A stretch of 64,000 bases of DNA from Lacibacter sp. H375. GTDB lineage: Bacteria > Bacteroidota > Bacteroidia > Chitinophagales > Chitinophagaceae. The stretch covers positions 3,596,001 through 3,660,000 of the forward strand of contig NZ_JBBKTT010000001.1 of the NCBI RefSeq assembly GCF_037892425.1, read 5' to 3'. The notes beneath the pieces are model-generated. The model saw only the letters and a list, made by a program, of their open reading frames with translations. It was not told the DNA's origin and made no database searches. Each line of letters begins with the position of its first letter. The stretch's first letter is position 1. Positions 4,221 through 14,094 of the stretch are shown here, one piece after another. Both the position numbers and the translations under genes were made by a program.

Positions 4221-4252
4221 TTTGATTATTTAACCTTCATACAACATCTTTG
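4221..4252 (+). promoter_or_regulatory. Putative trp operon promoter
   Basis: A -33 TTTG (4221-4224) and a -7 CATCTTTG (4245-4252) separated by 20 bases. The first base of the -7 box deviates from TAnnTTTG. The spacing equals that of the tRNA-Ser promoter at 39159-39190. The predicted start site, about 7 bases downstream, falls at or next to the ATG of the leader peptide (4260), so the leader mRNA would have almost no 5' untranslated region. Confidence 0.5.
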
Positions 4253-4259
4253 CAACTCA

Positions 4260-4319
4260 ATGAACAATGCAATTGTAAATAATCAGTGGTGGTGGCATAC
4301 AACTCTAAGGGGTCTGTAA
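4260..4319 (+). CDS. trpL: trp leader peptide with three consecutive Trp codons
   Basis: The 19-codon ORF MNNAIVNNQWWWHTTLRGL has TGG TGG TGG at 4287-4295 and stops at 4319, 90 bases before trpE. It is the sensor of ribosome-mediated attenuation. With little charged tRNA-Trp the ribosome stalls on the Trp codons and leaves GGGGTCTG (4309-4316) free. With ample Trp the ribosome reaches the stop codon and covers it. Too short for ordinary gene calling. The codon run, the position between the promoter and trpE, and the exactly placed terminator make it convincing. Confidence 0.88.
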   Translation: MNNAIVNNQWWWHTTLRGL

Positions 4320-4377
4320 TGCTATTACTGTGATTGTTCCAATCATATTCAGACCCCGAAGTTTTTCGGGGTTTTTT
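4309..4377 (+). promoter_or_regulatory. trp attenuator (antiterminator/terminator switch)
   Basis: Antiterminator: GGGGTCTG (4309-4316, the last codons of the leader peptide) is perfectly complementary to CAGACCCC (4350-4357). A small TGATTG/CAATCA hairpin (4331-4345) in between shortens the loop. The same CCCC is the 5' arm of the terminator stem (4354-4371), so the two structures exclude each other. This is the classic logic of Trp-controlled ribosome attenuation, read here directly from complementarity. No strong pause hairpin involving the Trp codons was noticed. Confidence 0.85.
4354..4377 (+). terminator. Intrinsic terminator of the trp leader
   Basis: A 7-bp GC-rich stem CCCCGAA/TTCGGGG with a 4-base loop (extendable by A-T), followed by six T. 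It lies 33 bases before the trpE ATG and would abort transcription when Trp is plentiful. Confidence 0.9.
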
Positions 4378-4409
4378 ATTTGCTGAAACTGAAATGAATT
4401 AAACGGATC

Positions 4410-5825
4410 ATGAAGAAAATTAAGATAGAAACGACTTGCAAAAAAATGCTGGCAGATGTGTTTACACCAGTTGGCATTTATCTCAGGCTGAGGGATCGGT
4501 TCCGGGATACCATCCTGCTCGAAAGTACAGATCATCATGCAGCCGAAAACAGTTGGTCGTTTATTGGTATCAATGCCATTGCAGGGATGGAGATCAGCTC
4601 CACAACAAGCATTGAATTTAAATTGCCCGGACAAAAACCTGAACGTATTGCTATTAAACAGCCAACAGAAGTGCCGCAGCAGTTGTTCGATTTCATGAAT
4701 CGGTTTGAAGCAAGCGGCGATTGCAAAGAAGCAAAATTTGCACAAGGTCTTTATGGTTACACAACATACGATGCAGTTCAATTCTTCGATACCATCAAAC
4801 TGAATGCAGAACGAAAAGATCCCGCTGCTATTCCGTTAATGCGTTACCGTTTGTATCAATACCTGATTGCTATCAATCATCATAAAGATGAATTGTTCAT
4901 TTGCGAAAATAAAATAGCAGGGATTGAAAGTGATGTGGCAGTTGTAGAAAGTTTGATCCGCAGCAAAGATGTGCCTGTTTATCCGTTTGCAGTAAAAGGT
5001 GAAGAAAGTTCGAATGTAACCAATGAGGAATATGTGGAGATGGTGAAGAAAGGCATTGCAAGTTGTCACAGAGGCGATGTGTTCCAGATCGTATTGAGCA
5101 GACGATTCCAGCAGTCGTTCAGTGGCGATGAGTTTAATGTGTACCGTGCTTTACGCAGTATCAACCCTTCTCCTTATTTATTCTTTTTTGATTACGGCGA
5201 TTATAAGTTGATGGGTTCATCACCGGAATCACAGATCATCATTAATAATGGTAAAGCTGTTGTTCATCCCATCGCCGGTACATTCAAACGTACTGGTGAT
5301 GATGAAATTGATCAGCAGGAAGCGGAACGTTTGCTGAAAGATGCGAAAGAAAATGCTGAGCATGTAATGTTGGTTGATCTTGCAAGAAATGACCTGAGTC
5401 GTGTGTGTGATGATGTAAGTGTGGCACATTACAGGCAGGTTCAATATTACAGTCATGTGATTCATTTGGTAAGTGAAGTGGTGGCAAAGGTTCGTCCCAA
5501 CTCGAATCCATTTGAATTATTAGCCAAAACATTTCCTGCAGGTACATTGAGTGGTGCGCCAAAAATCAAAGCCATGCAGTTGATCGATGCAAACGAACCA
5601 ACAGCCCGTAGTTATTATGGTGGCGGTATCGGCTTTATGGGTTTTGATGGAAGTTGCAATCATGCCATCATGATCCGTACGTTCATGAGCCGACAAAATA
5701 CGTTGGTGTATCAGGCCGGCGCAGGTGTAGTGGCAGCAAGCAAACCTGAAAGTGAACTACAGGAAGTGAATAATAAATTGGGAGCATTGAAGAAGGCGAT
5801 TGAATTTGCAGTAAGTATTAGTTAA
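4410..5825 (+). CDS. trpE: Anthranilate synthase component I
   Basis: Converts chorismate and ammonia (or glutamine through TrpG) to anthranilate, the first step of Trp synthesis. The 471 residues fit TrpE. The N-terminal allosteric domain carries the LLES tryptophan-binding motif. The C-terminal chorismate-binding domain has PIAGTFKRTG, the DLARNDLSRVC block and GTLSGAPKIKAMQLI. The start MKKIKIETTCKK follows the attenuator directly. It is the first structural gene of the operon. Retention of the LLES feedback site means both transcription and activity are probably Trp-controlled. Confidence 0.97.
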   Translation: MKKIKIETTCKKMLADVFTPVGIYLRLRDRFRDTILLESTDHHAAENSWSFIGINAIAGMEISSTTSIEFKLPGQKPERIAIKQPTEVPQQLFDFMNRFEASGDCKEAKFAQGLYGYTTYDAVQFFDTIKLNAERKDPAAIPLMRYRLYQYLIAINHHKDELFICENKIAGIESDVAVVESLIRSKDVPVYPFAVKGEESSNVTNEEYVEMVKKGIASCHRGDVFQIVLSRRFQQSFSGDEFNVYRALRSINPSPYLFFFDYGDYKLMGSSPESQIIINNGKAVVHPIAGTFKRTGDDEIDQQEAERLLKDAKENAEHVMLVDLARNDLSRVCDDVSVAHYRQVQYYSHVIHLVSEVVAKVRPNSNPFELLAKTFPAGTLSGAPKIKAMQLIDANEPTARSYYGGGIGFMGFDGSCNHAIMIRTFMSRQNTLVYQAGAGVVAASKPESELQEVNNKLGALKKAIEFAVSIS

Positions 5826-5846: not shown

Positions 5847-6428
5847 ATGAAAATTTTAGTATTCGATAATTACGACAGCTTTACATACAACCTCGTTCAT
5901 TTGGTTGAGAAGATCACACATATAAAAGTTGATGTGCATCGTAACGACCAGATTCCATTAGAGAAAGTGAAGGAGTATGATAAGATTATTTTATCACCTG
6001 GTCCAGGTATTCCTGAAGAAGCAGGTTTGTTGTTGCCATTGATCAAGGAATATGCAGCAACAAAATCTATTCTTGGTGTGTGTTTGGGTCACCAGGCAAT
6101 TGGTGAAGCATTTGGAGGAACGTTGACGAATTTGTCAACTGTATTTCATGGAGTGGCAACGCCTATTAAAATCCAAAATCCAAAGAATCCAAAACCCAAT
6201 GGCGTGTTGAATGGACTTCCTGATACAATTGAAGTTGGTCGTTATCACAGTTGGGTGGTGAATAAAGAAGGTTTCCCTGCTGAATTAGAAATAACTGCCG
6301 AAGATGAAACAGGAATGATCATGGCTTTGCAACATAAAACATATGATGTGCAAGGTGTGCAGTTTCATCCGGAAAGTGTATTGACGCCGGTAGGCGAGGC
6401 CATACTTCGTAATTGGTTGAAGGCTTAA
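5847..6428 (+). CDS. trpG: Anthranilate synthase component II (glutamine amidotransferase)
   Basis: Supplies ammonia from glutamine to TrpE. A class I amidotransferase with the oxyanion loop SPGPGIPEEAG, the nucleophile elbow GVCLGHQAIGE and the His-Glu pair in VQFHPES. I chose ATG 5847 (MKILVFDNYDSFTYN, the usual family start); ATG 5832 and TTG 5829 are in frame upstream. Just after VFHGVATPI comes IKIQNPKNPKPNG, encoded by an AAAATCC-type simple repeat also found between genes. In relatives this is a short surface loop, so a repeat appears to have entered the gene without breaking it. Confidence 0.95.
   Translation: MKILVFDNYDSFTYNLVHLVEKITHIKVDVHRNDQIPLEKVKEYDKIILSPGPGIPEEAGLLLPLIKEYAATKSILGVCLGHQAIGEAFGGTLTNLSTVFHGVATPIKIQNPKNPKPNGVLNGLPDTIEVGRYHSWVVNKEGFPAELEITAEDETGMIMALQHKTYDVQGVQFHPESVLTPVGEAILRNWLKA
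6167..6199. repeat. AAAATCC-type simple repeat inside trpG
   Basis: Repeated AAAATCCAAA phrases within the coding sequence, encoding a Lys/Asn/Pro-rich loop. The same wording occurs in the intergenic patch at 3569-3610. Confidence 0.55.
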
Positions 6429-6466
6429 TTTGAAAATGAGTGAATTTGAAAATTTGAAAATGAAAA
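6429..6466. repeat. TTTGAAAATG simple repeat at the trpG/trpD junction
   Basis: Repeats of TGAATTTGAAAA and TTTGAAAATG fill the gap between trpG and trpD and run into the trpD start region, creating three in-frame possible starts (6430, 6436, 6460). Confidence 0.55.
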
Positions 6467-7452
6467 AGATACTTCAGTTACTGTTTGAACATAAAAGCCT
6501 GGATCGTCAACAGGCGAAAGATGTGCTGCTGAACATTGGCAAGGGCATTTACAACGAACATGAGATCACAGCTTTCATGACAGTGTATCTCATGCGCAGC
6601 ATTACTATCGAAGAGCTGCAAGGCTTCCGTGATGCGTTGCTTGAACTTTGTGTGCCGGTTGATTTGAATGGACATGCAGTACTCGATATTGTCGGCACAG
6701 GTGGTGATGGAAAAAACACCTTCAACATTTCAACGCTCTCTTGTTTTATTGTGGCTGGTGCAGGACAAAAAGTTGCGAAGCATGGTAACTATGGTGCATC
6801 AACCATCAGTGGTGCAAGTAATGTAATGGAACAGCTGGGTTATAAATTCAAGAACAATGTTGATCAGCTGAAACGTGAAGTGGAAGAGGCAAATATTTGT
6901 TTCATGCATGCGCCGATGTTTCACCCGGCATTAAAAACAGTTGGGCCTATCCGTAAGAATCTCGGGATGCGTACCTTCTTTAATATGCTGGGGCCAATGG
7001 TGAATCCTGCAAGTCCGGCGTATCAGTTGGTGGGCGTGTTTAGTTTAGAGATGGCGAGAGTGTATAATTATTTATTGCAACAAGCAGGTGGAGCATTCAC
7101 CATCATTCATAGTTTGGATGGATATGATGAAATATCCTTGACCAACGATACAAAAGTGATCACCAACAAAGGTGAGTTCATTATGACTCCTGAACAGTTG
7201 GGCAAACGCATGGTACAGCAAACTGATATACATGGTGGCAACAGCATTGAAGAAGCAGCAAAGATCTTTACAAAGATCTTAAGCGGCGAAGGAACATGGG
7301 CGCAGAACGCAGTGGTAATGGCGAATGCAGCAATGGGTTTGTATTGCACAGGTGCATATAAAACTTATGATGATGCATTTGCGGCGGCAGTTGAAAGTTT
7401 GGAAAGTGGACGGGCAAATAACTGTTTGAAAAAATTGATTGAATTACAATAA
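6460..7452 (+). CDS. trpD: Anthranilate phosphoribosyltransferase
   Basis: Joins anthranilate to PRPP to give phosphoribosyl-anthranilate. Key motifs are the PRPP loop GTGGDGKNTFNIST, KHGNYGASTISGASNVMEQLG and the R-K-x-L-G-x-R-T block (IRKNLGMRTFFNMLGP). From ATG 6460 it is 330 residues, normal for the family (MKKILQLLFEHKSL). Upstream in-frame starts add MKMSEFENLK, which is translated simple repeat; they cannot be excluded. It lies 31 bases after trpG in the same operon. Confidence 0.95.
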   Translation: MKKILQLLFEHKSLDRQQAKDVLLNIGKGIYNEHEITAFMTVYLMRSITIEELQGFRDALLELCVPVDLNGHAVLDIVGTGGDGKNTFNISTLSCFIVAGAGQKVAKHGNYGASTISGASNVMEQLGYKFKNNVDQLKREVEEANICFMHAPMFHPALKTVGPIRKNLGMRTFFNMLGPMVNPASPAYQLVGVFSLEMARVYNYLLQQAGGAFTIIHSLDGYDEISLTNDTKVITNKGEFIMTPEQLGKRMVQQTDIHGGNSIEEAAKIFTKILSGEGTWAQNAVVMANAAMGLYCTGAYKTYDDAFAAAVESLESGRANNCLKKLIELQ

Positions 7453-7454
7453 GC

Positions 7455-8246
7455 ATGAATATTTTAGATAAGATCATTGTTCAGAAACGAATTGAAGTAG
7501 AGGAGCGTAAAGCAAAAGTGAGTGTAATTGAATTACAGCAGCAACCGTTGTATGCAAGACCGGTTCTTTCGTTGAAACAGTTTCTGCTCGATGATACAAA
7601 GACAGGAATTATTGCAGAGTTTAAACGTCAGTCGCCATCCAAGGGTGTGATCAATGGCAAGGCTGATGTGGTGGAAGTAACAACGGCTTACACAAACAAC
7701 GGTGCATCCTGTTTGAGTGTGTTAACCGATGAACAGTTCTTTGGCGGCAGTACAAACGATCTGCTGAAAGCAAGAGTGAACGAAATCCCTATCTTAAGAA
7801 AAGATTTCATTGTTGATGAATACCAAATCACAGAAGCAAAGGCCATGGGTGCTGATGTGATTTTGCTCATCGCTGCCTGTTTAACCTCTGCAGAAGTAAA
7901 ACGTTTAGCGATCTTTGCTAAATCGCTTGGGCTGGAAGTGTTGCTGGAACTGCATGCAGAAGAAGAACTGGAACATATTTGTGAGGAAACCGAAATTGTT
8001 GGTATCAACAACCGCAATCTTAAAACATTTGAAGTGGATATTGAACGGAGTTTACGCATGGCCAAACAAATTCCGGCGGATAAAATTAAAGTAGCAGAGA
8101 GCGGAATCAGCTCCGTTGAAAATATATTATTGTTCAAAGCAAACGGGTTCAGGGGATTTTTGATCGGTGAAAATTTTATGAAAGAAGAGAATCCCGGAAA
8201 AGCATTTGAACAATTCACCCAACAATTAAAAAAAGCAGAAGCATGA
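7455..8246 (+). CDS. trpC: Indole-3-glycerol-phosphate synthase
   Basis: Closes the indole ring from carboxyphenylamino-deoxyribulose phosphate. A TIM barrel of 263 residues with the family signatures EFKRQSPSKG, SVLTDEQFFGGS, PILRKDFIVDEYQ, the Glu in LLELHAEEELEH, GINNRNLKTFEVD and AESGIS. Monofunctional: the TrpF activity is a separate gene. It starts 2 bases after trpD and overlaps trpF by 4 bases (ATGA), indicating translational coupling. Confidence 0.96.
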   Translation: MNILDKIIVQKRIEVEERKAKVSVIELQQQPLYARPVLSLKQFLLDDTKTGIIAEFKRQSPSKGVINGKADVVEVTTAYTNNGASCLSVLTDEQFFGGSTNDLLKARVNEIPILRKDFIVDEYQITEAKAMGADVILLIAACLTSAEVKRLAIFAKSLGLEVLLELHAEEELEHICEETEIVGINNRNLKTFEVDIERSLRMAKQIPADKIKVAESGISSVENILLFKANGFRGFLIGENFMKEENPGKAFEQFTQQLKKAEA

Positions 8247-8869
8247 ATATTAAAGTTTGCGGTATTACCCAATTGAAACAGGTACAACAGTTAGAAGGAT
8301 TAGATATTGATTTTGTCGGATTTATTTTCGACAAGAATTCTCCCCGTTATGTGGAAGGAAAGCTGGATAAGAAAGAGATCAAGAAAGCGGATTACGACAT
8401 GAAGAAAGTGGGGGTGTTTGTGAATCCATCGTACAGCGATATCCTGGATGCAATTGAAGATTATGGTTTGGATGTGGTGCAACTGCATGGTGAAGAAACG
8501 CCTGAGTTTTGCTCTGATCTCAATGAAGATGTGGAAGTGATCAAAGTATTTCATATTGATGAATCGGTGAAAGATATTGATGGGTTGGTAGCGCCTTATG
8601 ATGAAGCATGTGACTATTATTTGTTTGATACAAAGAGCGGTAATCAGAAAGGTGGCACAGGGAAACAATTCGAATGGGATGTTATTGCAAAAAGTAAAAT
8701 TGAAAAACCGTTTTTCCTGAGTGGTGGTATTGGTATTGAAGATGTTAAACGCATCAAAGCATTTAAGCATCCTGATTTTTATGGTGTGGATGTTAACAGC
8801 AAAGTGGAGAAAGCACCCGGTGAAAAAGATATGAGTTTAGTGTTGCAGTTTAAGTTAGGGATGAAATAG
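8243..8869 (+). CDS. trpF: Phosphoribosylanthranilate isomerase, first copy
   Basis: Catalyses the Amadori rearrangement between the TrpD and TrpC steps. A 208-residue TIM barrel with catalytic Cys6 (KVCGIT), Arg in NSPRYV, VGVFVN, VQLHGEE, catalytic Asp in FDTKSG, the GGTGKQF loop, LSGGI for phosphate and a terminal DVNSKVE in place of the more usual DVSSGVE. The start overlaps trpC. A paralogue follows 86 bases downstream. Its tight coupling to trpC makes this copy the likely housekeeping one. Confidence 0.93.
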   Translation: MNIKVCGITQLKQVQQLEGLDIDFVGFIFDKNSPRYVEGKLDKKEIKKADYDMKKVGVFVNPSYSDILDAIEDYGLDVVQLHGEETPEFCSDLNEDVEVIKVFHIDESVKDIDGLVAPYDEACDYYLFDTKSGNQKGGTGKQFEWDVIAKSKIEKPFFLSGGIGIEDVKRIKAFKHPDFYGVDVNSKVEKAPGEKDMSLVLQFKLGMK

Positions 8870-8917
8870 TCTGAACTGTGATTTGTGAGATGACAGGATT
8901 GTTGGGATGAATAACGA
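8869..8917. repeat. Degenerate simple-repeat patch between the two trpF copies
   Basis: Text-like low-complexity sequence (CTGAACTGTGATTTGTGAG, then GATGACAGGATTGTTGGGATG) with no coding potential on either strand. It resembles the other degenerate patches in this window in style. Confidence 0.4.
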
Positions 8918-8955
8918 TTGCGTTTGCTTACAACCAACCAATTAAGGCAAAGCGT

Positions 8956-9591
8956 ATGAGAATTAAAGTTTGCGGCATGACCGATTTGCAACAGATGCAC
9001 CAATTAGGAGAAATGGGTGTTGAGTTTGCCGGAATGATCTTTTACCACAAATCACCAAGGTTTGTGTTGAAGCATTTAAACGGTGTGCAGGTGAAACGGG
9101 CGAAGCTGAAAGTTTACAAGGTGGGTGTGTTTGTAAATGCGTCGTATGATGAGATCATTAACCATGTAGAGAATTTTGGGTTGGACATGGTACAGTTGCA
9201 TGGTGATGAAACACCGAAGTTCTGTGAAAAGGTATCGGATTATATTTCTGTGATCAAAGCATTCCGTATTACTGATGATGATAATATTCCCTGGAAGATC
9301 AAAGATTATGTGGAAGCGGTGGATATGTATATGTTTGATACGATGGGTGCAGGTTACGGCGGCACGGGAAAAAAGTTTAACTGGAATATGCTCAAAGGCT
9401 TGAACATCGGTAAACCATTTTTCTTAAGTGGAGGCATTGAGCCAACCGATGCAGCAGCCATCAAAGAGTTTGCAAAAGAAGAAGTAGCAAAGGATCTGTT
9501 TGCATTGGATATGAACAGCAAGTTTGAAACAATGCCCGGCATGAAGGATATGGAACTGGTGAAGAAGTTTGTGGGTGAGTTGAGAGGATGA
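8956..9591 (+). CDS. trpF: Phosphoribosylanthranilate isomerase, tandem second copy
   Basis: A second TrpF of 211 residues directly behind the first, roughly 40-50% identical by eye. It keeps catalytic Cys6 (KVCGMT), Arg in KSPRFV, VGVFVN, VQLHGDE, the catalytic Asp (MFDTMG), GGTGKKF and LSGGI, so nothing visible predicts inactivity. It ends DMNSKFE where the first copy has DVNSKVE. The moderate identity argues against a recent duplication. It may have the same activity, act as a backup, or have shifted to a related sugar-phosphate isomerisation. Confidence 0.88.
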   Translation: MRIKVCGMTDLQQMHQLGEMGVEFAGMIFYHKSPRFVLKHLNGVQVKRAKLKVYKVGVFVNASYDEIINHVENFGLDMVQLHGDETPKFCEKVSDYISVIKAFRITDDDNIPWKIKDYVEAVDMYMFDTMGAGYGGTGKKFNWNMLKGLNIGKPFFLSGGIEPTDAAAIKEFAKEEVAKDLFALDMNSKFETMPGMKDMELVKKFVGELRG

Positions 9592-9593
9592 GG

Positions 9594-9622
9594 TTAAGAC
9601 AGAGGCACGGAGACGCAGAAAA
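9594..9622. repeat. AGAGGCACGGAGACGCAGA-type simple repeat
   Basis: A degenerate repeat of GGCACGGAGACGCAG style immediately after the second trpF, in the gap before the propeller gene. No other function is seen. Confidence 0.4.
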
Positions 9623-9652
9623 ATTGAATGTTTTGAAATGATTTTTTGATCA

Positions 9653-10597
9653 ATGAGAGTTGTAGTAATTATTTTATTTAGCCTTTTTACTTTGTTAGCA
9701 AAAGCCCAATCGCCATCTATTCTTGATTTGGTTGTGATTGGTAAGGATACAATTGTTGCATCAACTTATGATATGTCAATAATTGTGTCAAATGATGGCG
9801 GGAAAACGTGGAAGACGACCCAACGTCAATTAATGAAAAAGTTGGGCTTGGATGGTACACGTATTTGGGGTATTGATAGTTGGATCGGAATACACGAGAG
9901 AAGTTATTCCAGACTTTTTTATTCCGATGATATTGGTAAGACATGGAAACAAATCGAGTTAAATACAGGTTTGTTTTTTGCAATGGAGTTTATTGAAATT
10001 GGAGGTAGGCTTTGGATTGTTGATGATCGGGGAAATTTGTGGGAACATAGGAATACAAATGTTGAAACAAGTTTTAGCTGGAAAAAAAGAACAAACTTCG
10101 AAGAATACAATGGAGGATTCGATGTTTATGCTGTAGGGGATACTTATAGCAAAATAACGAGAGATACAATTTGCTTGTTCAATGTTAAAAGCAAGAAGTA
10201 TAGAAAGTATATTAACCCTGTCGAATCTACAAGATTGTCTTTGCATTTGGATAGTACTACTGTCTTTCAGGTGACAAATTCAGGGGCAATGGTTAAAGTT
10301 GACTTGAAAACATTAAAGATTTCTTTGGTTACAAGAATCGAAGATGTAAAATGGCTACAATCGCTGTTATATGTGAACTCTAATTTTTACATTTTAGGGA
10401 GTGAGAGTAAAGGAAATTATGAAGATGCAGTTCTAACTAGGATAAATTCAAAATTTGAGCCTAAAAAAATTGAAGGGCTGAAAGGATTAGATCATGATTT
10501 CTGTTTTATTGATAAATATAAACGGATATGGATTGGCACAACTAAGGGAATGTTTGTACTTGAACCTGGCAGTGATAAATGTAGACAGATTCTATAA
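9653..10597 (+). CDS. Secreted beta-propeller protein with Asp-box repeats, inserted in the trp operon
   Basis: Function unknown. A 314-residue protein with a signal peptide (cleavage likely after LLAKA). It has two clear Asp-box/BNR motifs, SNDGGKTW near residue 46 and SDDIGKTW near 89, typical of sialidase- or sortilin-like propellers. Later strand pairs such as RIWIGTTKGMFVLE suggest more blades. No catalytic sialidase residues were recognised. It lies on the same strand between trpF and trpB, flanked by 61- and 87-base gaps, and looks more AT-rich than its neighbours. An exported protein has no obvious place in Trp synthesis, so it is probably a later insertion. Confidence 0.75.
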   Translation: MRVVVIILFSLFTLLAKAQSPSILDLVVIGKDTIVASTYDMSIIVSNDGGKTWKTTQRQLMKKLGLDGTRIWGIDSWIGIHERSYSRLFYSDDIGKTWKQIELNTGLFFAMEFIEIGGRLWIVDDRGNLWEHRNTNVETSFSWKKRTNFEEYNGGFDVYAVGDTYSKITRDTICLFNVKSKKYRKYINPVESTRLSLHLDSTTVFQVTNSGAMVKVDLKTLKISLVTRIEDVKWLQSLLYVNSNFYILGSESKGNYEDAVLTRINSKFEPKKIEGLKGLDHDFCFIDKYKRIWIGTTKGMFVLEPGSDKCRQIL

Positions 10598-10684
10598 AGA
10601 TGACTAGAATTACAATTCGTACAAGTGTGCGACGCAACAAAAGTTAAATAGTAGCAAAGTAGTTGACTACATAAAGAAATATAT

Positions 10685-11881
10685 ATGGAAACAACATATC
10701 AAAAACCTTCTTCGCAAGGTTATTACGGAAAATTCGGTGGAGCATATATTCCTGAAATGCTGCATCGGAATGTGGAGGAATTGCAGAGCCGATACCTCGA
10801 TATTATGAGCGATGCTGCTTTTCAAAAAGAGTTCAGGGGGTTGCTGAAAGATTATGTCGGTCGTCCTACACCGTTATTTTATGCAAAGCGGTTGAGCAAA
10901 CAATTCAACACAAATATCTGGCTGAAGCGGGAAGATCTTTGTCATACCGGAGCACATAAGATCAATAACACGGTGGGACAAATTTTGCTGGCTGAACGTC
11001 TCGGTAAAAAACGCATCATTGCAGAAACTGGTGCAGGACAACATGGTGTGGCAACTGCAACAGTGTGTGCGTTGAAGGGCGTGGAGTGTATTGTGTACAT
11101 GGGCGAAAAAGATATTGAACGCCAGGCGCCTAATGTGGCTCGTATGAAAATGTTGGGTGCAACAGTGGTGCCTGCAACAAGCGGCAGTAAAACATTAAAA
11201 GATGCAACGAATGAAGCCATTCGTGACTGGATCAATAATCCTAACGATACGCATTACATCATTGGCAGTGTGGTAGGTCCGCATCCTTATCCTGATATGG
11301 TAGCGAAATTTCAAAGTGTGATCAGCGAAGAAATGCGTTGGCAGTTGAAGGAACATACAGGCAACGATTTGCCAACGCATGTAATGGCATGTGTGGGTGG
11401 TGGCAGTAATGCAGCCGGTGCGTTCTATCATTTCTTAGATGAGTTGAGTGTGAAGTTGATCGCCGTTGAAGCAGCAGGCCATGGTGTAAACAGTGGCATG
11501 AGTGCTGCAACAACACAACTTGGTAAACCCGGTGTGTTGCATGGCAGTAAAAGTTTGTTGATGCAAACAGCAGATGGACAGGTGGTGGAGCCGCATAGTA
11601 TTTCGGCCGGTTTGGATTACCCGGGTATTGGTCCAATGCATGCGAATTTGTTTGAAAGTGGACGTGGTATATTTTTAAGTGCAACAGATGAAGAAGCGTT
11701 GGCTGCTGCATTTGAAGTGAGTAAGTTGGAAGGGATTATTCCGGCGTTGGAAACAGCGCATGCGTTTGCAGTGTTGCATAATTATAAGTTTAAAGAAGAC
11801 GACCAGGTGATCATTTGTTTGAGTGGAAGAGGGGATAAGGATCTGGCGACGTATATGAAGGCAATGGAAGGAAGAGTATAG
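10685..11881 (+). CDS. trpB: Tryptophan synthase beta chain
   Basis: Condenses indole with serine to form Trp, using PLP. 398 residues, the standard TrpB length. The PLP lysine is in HTGAHKINNTVGQ. Other signatures are GRPTPLFYA, AETGAGQHGVATA, GSVVGPHPYPDMVA, the phosphate-binding GGGSNAAG and the C-terminal CLSGRGDKDL. The start METTYQKPSSQGYYGKFGG is typical. It is separated from trpF2 by the propeller gene but from trpA by only 26 bases. Confidence 0.97.
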   Translation: METTYQKPSSQGYYGKFGGAYIPEMLHRNVEELQSRYLDIMSDAAFQKEFRGLLKDYVGRPTPLFYAKRLSKQFNTNIWLKREDLCHTGAHKINNTVGQILLAERLGKKRIIAETGAGQHGVATATVCALKGVECIVYMGEKDIERQAPNVARMKMLGATVVPATSGSKTLKDATNEAIRDWINNPNDTHYIIGSVVGPHPYPDMVAKFQSVISEEMRWQLKEHTGNDLPTHVMACVGGGSNAAGAFYHFLDELSVKLIAVEAAGHGVNSGMSAATTQLGKPGVLHGSKSLLMQTADGQVVEPHSISAGLDYPGIGPMHANLFESGRGIFLSATDEEALAAAFEVSKLEGIIPALETAHAFAVLHNYKFKEDDQVIICLSGRGDKDLATYMKAMEGRV

Positions 11882-11907
11882 AATCAAGAACATAGAAGTT
11901 AGAATTT

Positions 11908-12678
11908 ATGAGCAGAATAAAGGATTTGTTTGAACGCAAAAGCAAAAATTTACTGAATGTATATTGTACAGCAGGCTATCCGCAGTTGAACAGTACCGTT
12001 GAAGTAATGAAAGCGCTGCAAGAAAATGGTGCAGATCTCATTGAATTGGGTATGCCGTACAGTGATCCATTAGCTGACGGTCCTGTGATTCAACATAGCA
12101 GTACCATTGCATTAGCAAATGGCATGACCATTGAAACGTTGTTTGCGCAACTGAAAGATGCACGGAAAGAAATTACTGTACCGATCATTTTAATGGGTTA
12201 TATGAATCCTGTGTTGCAGTATGGCTTTGAACGTTTTTGTAAAGATGCGGCGGCTGTTGGTGTGGATGGATTGATCTTGCCTGATCTTCCGGAATATGAA
12301 TTTGAAACGGAGTATGGTGCTGTCATCAAAGCCAATGGTCTGGATTTTATTTTCTTAGTTACTCCTGAAACAAGTGATGAGCGAATTAAACGATTAGATA
12401 GTTTAAGTACAGGTTTTTTATATGCCGTTTCATCTTCATCTACAACAGGTAGTGATAAGAACATGACTGATGTAAATGCTTATCTGCAAAAGTTAAAGGC
12501 AATGCAGTTGAAGAACCCTGTGTTGGTGGGATTTGGTATTAAAGACAAACAGACTTTTGAAACTGCCTGTGCAAATGCTAATGGAGCAATTATTGGTACA
12601 GCATATATCAAGGCTTTGGAAGGAAAGGTTGATGTGGCAGGAACAACAAAAAAGTTTCTGTCCGGAGTGTTAAGTTGA
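11908..12678 (+). CDS. trpA: Tryptophan synthase alpha chain
   Basis: Cleaves indole-3-glycerol phosphate to indole, which tunnels to TrpB. A 256-residue TIM barrel. The catalytic Glu and Asp are in LIELGMPYSDPLADGP. Further signatures are PIILMGYMNPVLQYG, GLILPDLPEYE, FLVTPETSDERI, SSSSTTGSDKN and VGFGIKDKQT. The last base of its stop codon is the first base of the tRNA-Gly gene on the opposite strand, so trpA transcription necessarily runs against that tRNA unless it stops within the gene. Confidence 0.96.
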   Translation: MSRIKDLFERKSKNLLNVYCTAGYPQLNSTVEVMKALQENGADLIELGMPYSDPLADGPVIQHSSTIALANGMTIETLFAQLKDARKEITVPIILMGYMNPVLQYGFERFCKDAAAVGVDGLILPDLPEYEFETEYGAVIKANGLDFIFLVTPETSDERIKRLDSLSTGFLYAVSSSSTTGSDKNMTDVNAYLQKLKAMQLKNPVLVGFGIKDKQTFETACANANGAIIGTAYIKALEGKVDVAGTTKKFLSGVLS

Positions 12679-12773: not shown

Positions 12774-13376
12774 ATGAATTTGGCAATTGTAAAATACAAC
12801 GCAGGAAATATTCAGTCGGTGCTGTTTGCATTGGAACGATTAGGCGTTGATGCAAAAGTGACGGATGATCAGGATGAATTGTTTGCTGCTGATAAAGTGA
12901 TCTTCCCGGGTGTGGGTGCTGCACGAAGTGCTATGGATAGTTTGAAAGAGAAAGGGTTGGATGCTGTTATTAAACAACTGAAGCAACCTGTGCTCGGTAT
13001 TTGTGTGGGTATGCAGTTGCTGTTTGAACATTCGGAGGAAAGTGATACAGCATGTTTGGGAATTATTCCGGCAAAGGTGAAACTGTTCAAGAGTGAAGAG
13101 ATCAGCCCTGACATTCCTATTAAAGTGCCGCAGGTTGGATGGAATGACATTTATAATCTGAAAACCGATCTGTTCAAAGATGTGCCGGAACATAGTTATA
13201 TCTACTACGTACATAGTTATTACGCAGAAATGAATCCGTATTGCATAGCAACATCTAACTACGGATTGGAGTATGCGGGGGCTGTGCAGAAAGATAATTT
13301 TTATGGTGTGCAGTTTCACACTGAGAAGAGTGCTAAAGTTGGCGACCAGATCTTAAAAAATTTTATAGAAAAATAG
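12774..13376 (+). CDS. hisH: Imidazole glycerol phosphate synthase, glutaminase subunit
   Basis: Provides ammonia to HisF for the imidazole ring. A class I amidotransferase of 200 residues with an N-terminus MNLAIVKYNAGNIQSVLFAL, FPGVGAARSAM (oxyanion strand), the Cys nucleophile in GICVGMQLLF, YYVHSYY and the His-Glu pair in VQFHTEKS. It begins 24 bases after the antisense tRNA-Gly and 1 base before hisA. HisF is not in the window, so the partner must be encoded elsewhere. No promoter is obvious, and it may be read from the trp operon. Confidence 0.95.
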   Translation: MNLAIVKYNAGNIQSVLFALERLGVDAKVTDDQDELFAADKVIFPGVGAARSAMDSLKEKGLDAVIKQLKQPVLGICVGMQLLFEHSEESDTACLGIIPAKVKLFKSEEISPDIPIKVPQVGWNDIYNLKTDLFKDVPEHSYIYYVHSYYAEMNPYCIATSNYGLEYAGAVQKDNFYGVQFHTEKSAKVGDQILKNFIEK

Positions 13377-13377
13377 T

Positions 13378-14094
13378 ATGCAGATTATACCAGCCATTGA
13401 CATTATTGACGGGAAATGTGTGCGATTAACAGAAGGAGACTATTCACAAAAGAAAATTTACAACGAACATCCTTTAGAAGTTGCAAAGGAATTTGAAGGT
13501 GCAGGATTACAACGTTTACATTTGGTTGATCTCGATGGCGCAAAAGCAGGCGCCGTTAAGAATTGGAAAGTATTGGAAACAATTACTTCTAAAACTTCAC
13601 TCATTATTGATTTTGGTGGTGGTATTAAACAGGAAGAAGATGTAAAGATAGTTCTCAATTCTGGTGCGGCATTGGCAACAGTTGGAAGTATTGCTGTGAA
13701 AGATGAAACGAAGTTTGTAAGCTGGTTGCAACAATTTGGCGCAGAGAAATTTTTATTAGGTGCTGATGTAAAGAATGAAAAAATTGCTGTAGGCGGTTGG
13801 CTGGAAACAACGGATATCTGGATCTACGATTTCATTGAAAAATATATCAATCATGGTGTGCAGCAGATCTTCTGCACCGATGTAAGTAAAGATGGCCGAC
13901 TCGAAGGGCCATCAACTGAACTCTACAAAAATATCATTCAAAAATTTCCTCATCTGCATTTCATTGCCAGCGGCGGCGTAAGCTCAATGAAAGATCTGGA
14001 TGAATTAGCTGAGATCGGTTGTAATGGTGCTATTGTTGGCAAAGCCATTTATGAAGGCAGAGTAACATTGAATGAATTGAAGAAGTTCAGTTAA
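13378..14094 (+). CDS. hisA: Phosphoribosylformimino-5-aminoimidazole carboxamide ribotide isomerase
   Basis: Amadori isomerase of His synthesis, mechanistically the partner of TrpF. 238 residues. The half-barrel signatures PAIDIIDGKCVRLTEGDY, VDLDGAKAG, FGGGIK, the second catalytic Asp in FCTDVSKDGRLEGPS and the phosphate-binding ASGGVSS all fit HisA. The partial TrpF-like barrel is single-function here because two trpF genes are present. The stop is 1 base from the end of the convergent flippase gene, leaving no room for a terminator. Confidence 0.95.
   Translation: MQIIPAIDIIDGKCVRLTEGDYSQKKIYNEHPLEVAKEFEGAGLQRLHLVDLDGAKAGAVKNWKVLETITSKTSLIIDFGGGIKQEEDVKIVLNSGAALATVGSIAVKDETKFVSWLQQFGAEKFLLGADVKNEKIAVGGWLETTDIWIYDFIEKYINHGVQQIFCTDVSKDGRLEGPSTELYKNIIQKFPHLHFIASGGVSSMKDLDELAEIGCNGAIVGKAIYEGRVTLNELKKFS

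Follow-up and report, generated by a model that had tools for sequence, protein, structure and literature searches.

The window, a stretch of 64,000 nucleotides from contig NZ_JBBKTT010000001.1 of Lacibacter sp. H375, contains a trp operon preceded by a short ORF with three adjacent Trp codons (Table 1). The top NCBIfam match of the first gene controlled, trpE, was TIGR00564 (trpE_most; E-value 5.1e-122) with a score of 408.1 bits, under the curated cut-off of 517.7. The downstream genes trpG, trpD, trpC, trpB and trpA each passed the curated cut-off of at least one family profile, and both trpF copies matched trpF models with scores below the cut-offs of those models. The two trpF-like genes lie adjacent within the operon at 8243-8869 and 8956-9591 with a mutual identity of 46%. 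The translation of the ORF between trpF and trpB, as read, was unlike a pathway gene. Genes resembling hisH and hisA are apparently located 3' of trpA at 12774-14094, as judged by their translations only. A search of the whole window with Rfam at the gathering threshold returned two tRNAs only; none of its families, including T-box and Trp_leader (RF00513), matched at 4221-4377.

An earlier note on this DNA described a 19-codon leader with three adjacent Trp codons, a stretch at the end of the ORF perfectly complementary to a second stretch further downstream, and a CCCC doubling as one arm of a T-tailed terminator before trpE. All three were present as described: the complementarity of GGGGTCTG and CAGACCCC is perfect, and the CCCC closing the latter opens the terminator stem. 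The antiterminator had also been said to overlap the leader stop; instead, the last base of GGGGTCTG, 4316, lies immediately before the stop codon. Elements added here are a protector hairpin formed by TGGCATACAACTCT and 4309-4324 and a promoter box, CATCTTTG, separated from the leader ATG by 7 nt.

Table 1. Elements of the trp leader region and genes of the operon, with positions in the window.
Feature	Position	Strand	Remarks
-33 promoter element TTTG	4221..4224	+	sequence
-7 promoter element CATCTTTG	4245..4252	+	5/6 of Bacteroidota consensus TAnnTTTG
Predicted transcription start (+1)	4257	+	inferred from box position in F. psychrophilum; 3-nt 5' UTR
trp leader peptide ORF MNNAIVNNQWWWHTTLRGL	4260..4319	+	19 codons plus TAA stop (4317-4319)
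Three adjacent Trp codons (TGG TGG TGG), regulatory codons	4287..4295	+	sequence
Protector 5' arm TGGCATACAACTCT	4293..4306	+	predicted pairing with 4309-4324
GGGGTCTG, antiterminator 5' arm and part of protector 3' arm	4309..4316	+	sequence
CAGACCCC, antiterminator 3' arm	4350..4357	+	CCCC (4354-4357) common to terminator
Intrinsic terminator CCCCGAA-GTTT-TTCGGGG plus six T	4354..4377	+	stem 4354-4371, T 4372-4377
trpE	4410..5825	+	first gene controlled; NCBIfam profile match
trpG, trpD, trpC, two trpF copies, ORF 9653-10597, trpB, trpA	5850..12678	+	3' of trpE

Predicted folding of the leader RNA

The RNA of 4240-4400 was predicted to fold with an energy of -46.5 kcal/mol (z = -4.45), and none of 200 dinucleotide shuffles folded as well. 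The ribosome-free predicted fold consisted of the long protector hairpin together with the terminator. Ribosomes were represented by masking all RNA as far as 15 nt 3' of the first P-site base, a toeprint value. With the last Trp codon in the A site, GGGGTCTG was free and the RNA up to the terminator 5' arm folded as the antiterminator with -19.7 kcal/mol; with the ribosome at the stop codon, only unrelated structure of -4.8 kcal/mol was left and the terminator 5' arm was free. The pairing of the terminator 5' arm with upstream RNA was 0.67 in the Trp stall, 0.11 at the stop codon and 0.05 without a ribosome. When both terminator arms were present in the Trp stall, the terminator fold (-21.4 kcal/mol) was favored over the antiterminator, the energy of which was obtained with the terminator 3' arm not yet made. 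Since completion of the terminator 3' arm favors the terminator even in the stalled state, the choice must be a kinetic one, made during RNA synthesis.

We infer a start site, a ribosome footprint, an order of folding and a response to Trp that would together follow the usual logic of ribosome-mediated attenuators. RNA polymerase would start approximately 3 nt before the leader ATG, so that a ribosome could load once the 5' end emerges, independent of a Shine-Dalgarno sequence. When charged tRNA-Trp is scarce, the ribosome would stall at the Trp codons and cover the protector 5' arm, leaving GGGGTCTG free to pair with the emerging CAGACCCC; the antiterminator thus formed would block the terminator, and trpE and the genes beyond it would be transcribed. 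When Trp is plentiful, the ribosome would reach the stop codon and cover GGGGTCTG, allowing the terminator to form. If no ribosome loads, the protector hairpin would sequester GGGGTCTG and the terminator would form as well.

Conservation and distribution of the leader

Close relatives were represented by 110 loci comprised of the best 80 of 581 candidates (on named contigs) and 30 loci from genomes of the same family, a set that for this reason leans to near kin. Loci were assigned to the set by trpE similarity, and other groups appear in some of the 80 titles. Enough upstream DNA was present at 109 of the 110 loci (L080, at a contig end, was left out), yielding 103 distinct regions that include the window itself (L001, the same as L082). 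A Trp leader, the conservation of which had been set beforehand as a test of the attenuator, was found in 102 of the 103 distinct regions. Two or three adjacent Trp codons were present in 96, six (L053, L055, L064, L065, L066 and L068) contained a single Trp codon in the context GWH, and L016 was the sole exception in which no Trp leader was found. The leaders of the close relatives resemble MKQITNKYWWWHTNSLRGL. The six leaders with a single Trp codon have GGGG near the stop codon.

A terminator with a dG of -5 or lower was located in 98 of the 102 loci with a leader, the four scored as lacking one (L075-L078) having a visible hairpin outside the T-tail rule. Masked folding of the 98 gave mean pairing values for the terminator 5' arm of 0.71, 0.22 and 0.35 with the ribosome stalled at the last Trp codon, positioned at the stop codon and absent, respectively. 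The difference between stall and stop exceeded 0.3 in 86 of the 98 and was 0.3 or less in 12, while 61 passed both strict cut-offs.

Conservation of the stem complementarity was evaluated by a swap test, used in place of covariation, in which pairing in cis was compared with pairing to partners from sequences less than 85% identical. Mean energies in cis and after swapping were -14.3 and -12.9 kcal/mol for the antiterminator (p = 2e-6), -11.1 and -10.0 kcal/mol for the protector (p = 7e-8) and -16.7 and -13.2 kcal/mol for the terminator (p = 1e-17), all p values being uncorrected for ancestry. The native pairing surpassed more than half of its own swaps in 65 of 98 loci for the antiterminator, 64 for the protector and 87 for the terminator, so that about a third of the loci count against the first two. 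On average, pairing between leader and terminator is stronger in cis than between species, and the attenuator withstood the conservation test set by the earlier note for leader ORF and complementarity. A median of 13 nt separates the last Trp codon from the start of the antiterminator arm in the close relatives, a spacing that places the arm just past the assumed leading edge of a stalled ribosome. In the Chitinophaga relatives (L074-L081) the stem sequences were quite different and, by inspection, still apparently complementary.

The trp operon is very probably controlled at this locus by a transcription attenuator of the classical, ribosome-mediated type, since the features testable here fit that class: a conserved short ORF with adjacent Trp codons 5' of trpE, an intrinsic terminator between leader and trpE and, by folding prediction, mutually exclusive protector, antiterminator and terminator structures placed for choice by the ribosome. 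The complete attenuator proposed by the earlier note is therefore supported by its parts, by their conservation and by the folding alternatives.

The distribution in the phylum was investigated with a first draw of 128 trpE upstream regions outside the family, obtained from the full-length trpE sequences among the matches listed, of which only family f16 was sub-sampled (nine taken). A leader was scored when the final 480 nt of a region held an ATG-initiated ORF of 6-50 codons encoding WW or WxW (a Trp doublet). Such an ORF was present in 102 of the 128 regions, compared with 2-10 in ten rounds of dinucleotide shuffling, 1 on the reverse strand and 11 in DNA further upstream; doublets of seven other codons, scored in the same way, gave 4-20 of 128. 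Trp leaders were found in 39 of 39 regions from the class to which the window belongs and in 63 of 89 beyond it. A second draw from the class comprised 30 of 34 new trpE-like matches, the others being without upstream DNA or partial (G385 and G342) or weak (G432 and G457), and 20 of the 30 contained a Trp leader, with L256 (211 nt) counted as lacking one. Both draws together gave a Trp leader in 122 of 158 sampled loci, a few of the counted ORFs being doubtful (for example, L217). A T-tailed hairpin was located within 130 nt of the leader in 121 of the 122, a raw count without shuffle control. Given 122 of 158 loci against 2-10 of 128 in the shuffles, the predicted trp attenuator is common in the sampled phylum rather than an exception. 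No Trp leader was found at 36 of the 158 loci. The search 5' of trpE was negative for the nine loci of family f16 (L176, L237-L239 and L242-L246), in which the attenuator may have been lost or never gained or trpE may not be first in the operon, and for 14 loci together from families f17, f11, f27, f14, f29 and f25. Families of the phylum are given here as numbers, with Bacteroides and its kin not set apart.

Start site and constraint on the leader

In Flavobacterium psychrophilum the TAnnTTTG promoter box is reported to span -12 to -5 (PMC9723704), a position that places +1 at 4257, 3 nt before the leader ATG of the window. This start site is predicted from the position of the motif alone, and an otherwise genuine attenuator could have its start elsewhere if the box were a chance match in AT-rich DNA; of 584 other ATGs in the close-relative DNA, 28 indeed had a box 4-10 nt upstream. 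Against such an origin, the box was present at that distance before 95 of 102 leaders and 3 of 102 trpE starts, the commonest gap was exactly 7 nt (60 of the 95), as in the window, and 87 of the 95 had a TTTG around the -33 position, 26-12 nt upstream of the -7 box (a raw count, without control). The corresponding figures for the box in the remainder of the class were 29 of 58 leaders and 15 of 298 other ATGs. Leaders outside the class, scored for a different promoter type (-35/-10) with a gap of 5-11 nt, gave 31 of 62 compared with 3 of 372 other ATGs; L272, with its leader ATG at the contig edge, and one leader outside the class were left out of the promoter counts. These criteria leave 29 of the 58 and 31 of the 62 leaders without a box, in favor of a start elsewhere, whereas a looser score detected promoters before 19 of 39 leaders in the class (shuffled upstream DNA, mean 1.8, maximum 4) and 37 of 62 in other classes (mean 5.4, maximum 11). 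Also in favor of a start elsewhere, 12 of 18 leaders of family f5 had gaps of 16-20 nt, predicting 5' UTRs of 12-16 nt. Weighed together, the counts make a chance match improbable as the explanation for the box. The results are more consistent with a near-leaderless leader, and many relatives within the phylum have similar devices whose leader ORF apparently lies almost at the 5' end of the transcript. Such a leader may allow a phylum lacking Shine-Dalgarno sequences to couple the ribosome to the polymerase.

The conservation of WWWHTNSxRGL in the close relatives raises the question of whether the peptide itself acts as a sequence-specific, TnaC-like arrest peptide. The Trp run was followed by His in 81 and then by Thr in 69 of the 88 close-relative leaders with WWW, and the Thr codon showed no contrast, with ACA at 64 of 68 positions after the run and 37 of 48 before it. 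However, the Asn third after the run was encoded by AAC in 62 of 62, compared with 133 AAT and 53 AAC for Asn before the run in the same leaders. Those AAC bases lie in the protector 5' arm, with the reservation that shared ancestry may inflate the contrast. Moreover, the residue following the Trp run varies outside the close relatives (P, H, L, S, F, N, Q and others). An arrest peptide is judged very unlikely, the conservation looking nucleotide-level at the Asn codon while the Thr codon favors neither reading, and a constraint on the RNA, although not proved, is the better reading. As an alternative to the predicted Trp-dependent read-through, a constitutive terminator that merely keeps basal expression low, its Trp codons being incidental, is scarcely credible in light of the conserved geometry and alternative pairing and the excess of Trp-doublet ORFs in the 128 phylum loci over shuffled and reverse-strand DNA.

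Related leaders and known attenuators

The complementarity of the leader end to the terminator 5' arm was also scored against shuffles, with a mean z of -2.9 in the window's family (88 of 98 below -1) and -1.72 outside the close relatives (75 of 121 below -1). The leader ends of families f22 and f12 likewise pair with the terminator 5' arm. Those of families f5 and f15 have no pairing to the 5' arm and pair with the terminator loop plus the 3' arm, with z below -1.5 in 12 of 18 and 8 of 13 leaders, respectively. The loop and 3' arm pairing, seen for example in L128 and L162, represents a second antiterminator topology.

The genome of the window was also scanned for a second copy with TTTG-ATG-TGGTGG; this gave 153 matches on the two strands compared with 75 for the reversed pattern and was rejected as too unspecific. 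Four other upstream regions were compared, those of hisG, ilvD, aspartate kinase and pheA, and a near-leaderless leader was found for hisG and pheA only; none was seen upstream of ilvD. The hisG leader MILNAHTHHHHTCPNR (L247, 1287-1337) has a promoter box 4 nt before the ATG, and its stop codon lies inside a 7-bp pairing, GTAAGCC/GGCTTAC, with the terminator 5' arm. The same region contains one chance ORF with TTTG 9 nt before its ATG. On the reverse strand of L250, approximately 170 nt before the PDT (pheA) match, a Phe/Tyr-rich ORF, MTINKGYRFFYFSFFYFRMKPGLLLLNAN, is preceded by a box 5 nt before the ATG and followed 3' by a hairpin with a T-rich tail, as recognized by eye; the region is a probable Phe attenuator. 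Upstream of aspartate kinase (L251) lies a Thr-rich ORF, MKKTVVHIHSSSIASSATGTTTFTTTIR, translated by eye and without a clear near-leaderless promoter, a possible Thr attenuator.

In the literature searched, neither a Bacteroidota-wide account of trp attenuation nor a report of near-leaderless leaders at attenuators of that phylum was found. The older comparative studies of Lopatovskaya (2010), Vitreschak (2004) and Merino (2008) may already report Bacteroidota trp leaders; the novelty of such leaders is uncertain. The leader resembles trpL of E. coli, which has a 5' UTR with a Shine-Dalgarno sequence, in its adjacent Trp codons, in the protector, antiterminator and terminator logic, and in the terminator before trpE. 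It differs from trpL in having three Trp codons, a stop codon abutting the antiterminator arm and no Rfam match at the gathering score. Attenuators have also been considered together with leaderless initiation in two members of other phyla, Sinorhizobium meliloti, of the Alphaproteobacteria, and Corynebacterium glutamicum, of the Actinobacteria.

The trpL/trpE(G) attenuator of S. meliloti has a leaderless trpL, transcribed from the leader ATG, and shares with the window a Trp leader peptide and ribosome-dependent termination before trpE, which is predicted for the window (PMC7298713). The S. meliloti leader has 14 codons compared with 19 here and a mapped 5' UTR of zero compared with the predicted 3 nt (PMC7298713). 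The ilvBNC operon of C. glutamicum has a three-hairpin attenuator discussed together with leaderless initiation, a combination predicted in similar form for the window, but responds to branched-chain amino acids (PMC11857589). A 2010 survey states that no leader-peptide system had been shown outside Proteobacteria and Actinobacteria except the atypical ermC leader and the authors' own case in bacilli (PMC2965389). Within the phylum, leader-peptide attenuation of amino-acid operons is put forward, on 'strong clues', in a transcriptome study of F. psychrophilum, which describes structured 5' regions, family-conserved elements at pheA and hisG and no Rfam hits; in the parts of that account available, trp is unnamed, no mechanism is drawn and the position of the leader start is undiscussed (PMC9723704). 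The available parts of PMC4833913, PMC1262725, PMC8305728 and PMC8632094 likewise hold nothing on trp attenuation in Bacteroidota. That such attenuators are less documented in Bacteroidota, as had been supposed in the earlier note, is in agreement with the few sources located, of which the F. psychrophilum study is an example.

For attenuation to work, a ribosome has to reach the leader in time. The phylum is described as lacking Shine-Dalgarno sequences (PMC9723704), and leaderless mRNAs are rare in it. They account for 5.5% of mapped mRNAs in F. psychrophilum (PMC9723704), and a 2011 survey detected leaderless genes in 1 of 37 Bacteroidetes/Chlorobi genomes, which its authors consider a likely underestimate (PMC3160421). 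In B. thetaiotaomicron about 3.7% of 5' UTRs are under 10 nt. A joint reading, which we judge to have an even chance of being correct, is that the trp operon of Bacteroidota was ancestrally under ribosome-mediated attenuation with a leaderless or near-leaderless leader ORF, likewise for his and phe leaders, and that leaderless initiation would have been kept preferentially for attenuators, where it would synchronize loading of the first ribosome with the advance of RNA polymerase in a phylum with no Shine-Dalgarno sequences and few leaderless mRNAs. The antiterminator would then occur in two topologies, capture of the terminator 5' arm (the window's family, f22 and f12) and capture of the loop and 3' arm (f5 and f15).

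If near-leaderless starts do recur at attenuators throughout the phylum, they would explain in functional terms why leaderless initiation is kept and would offer a simple reporter of it. Annotation would profit from a phylum-wide set of trp attenuators, the one in the window having no match in Rfam. Overall, for the organism, translation of the tiny Trp-rich gene before the trp genes probably decides whether the trp genes are read.
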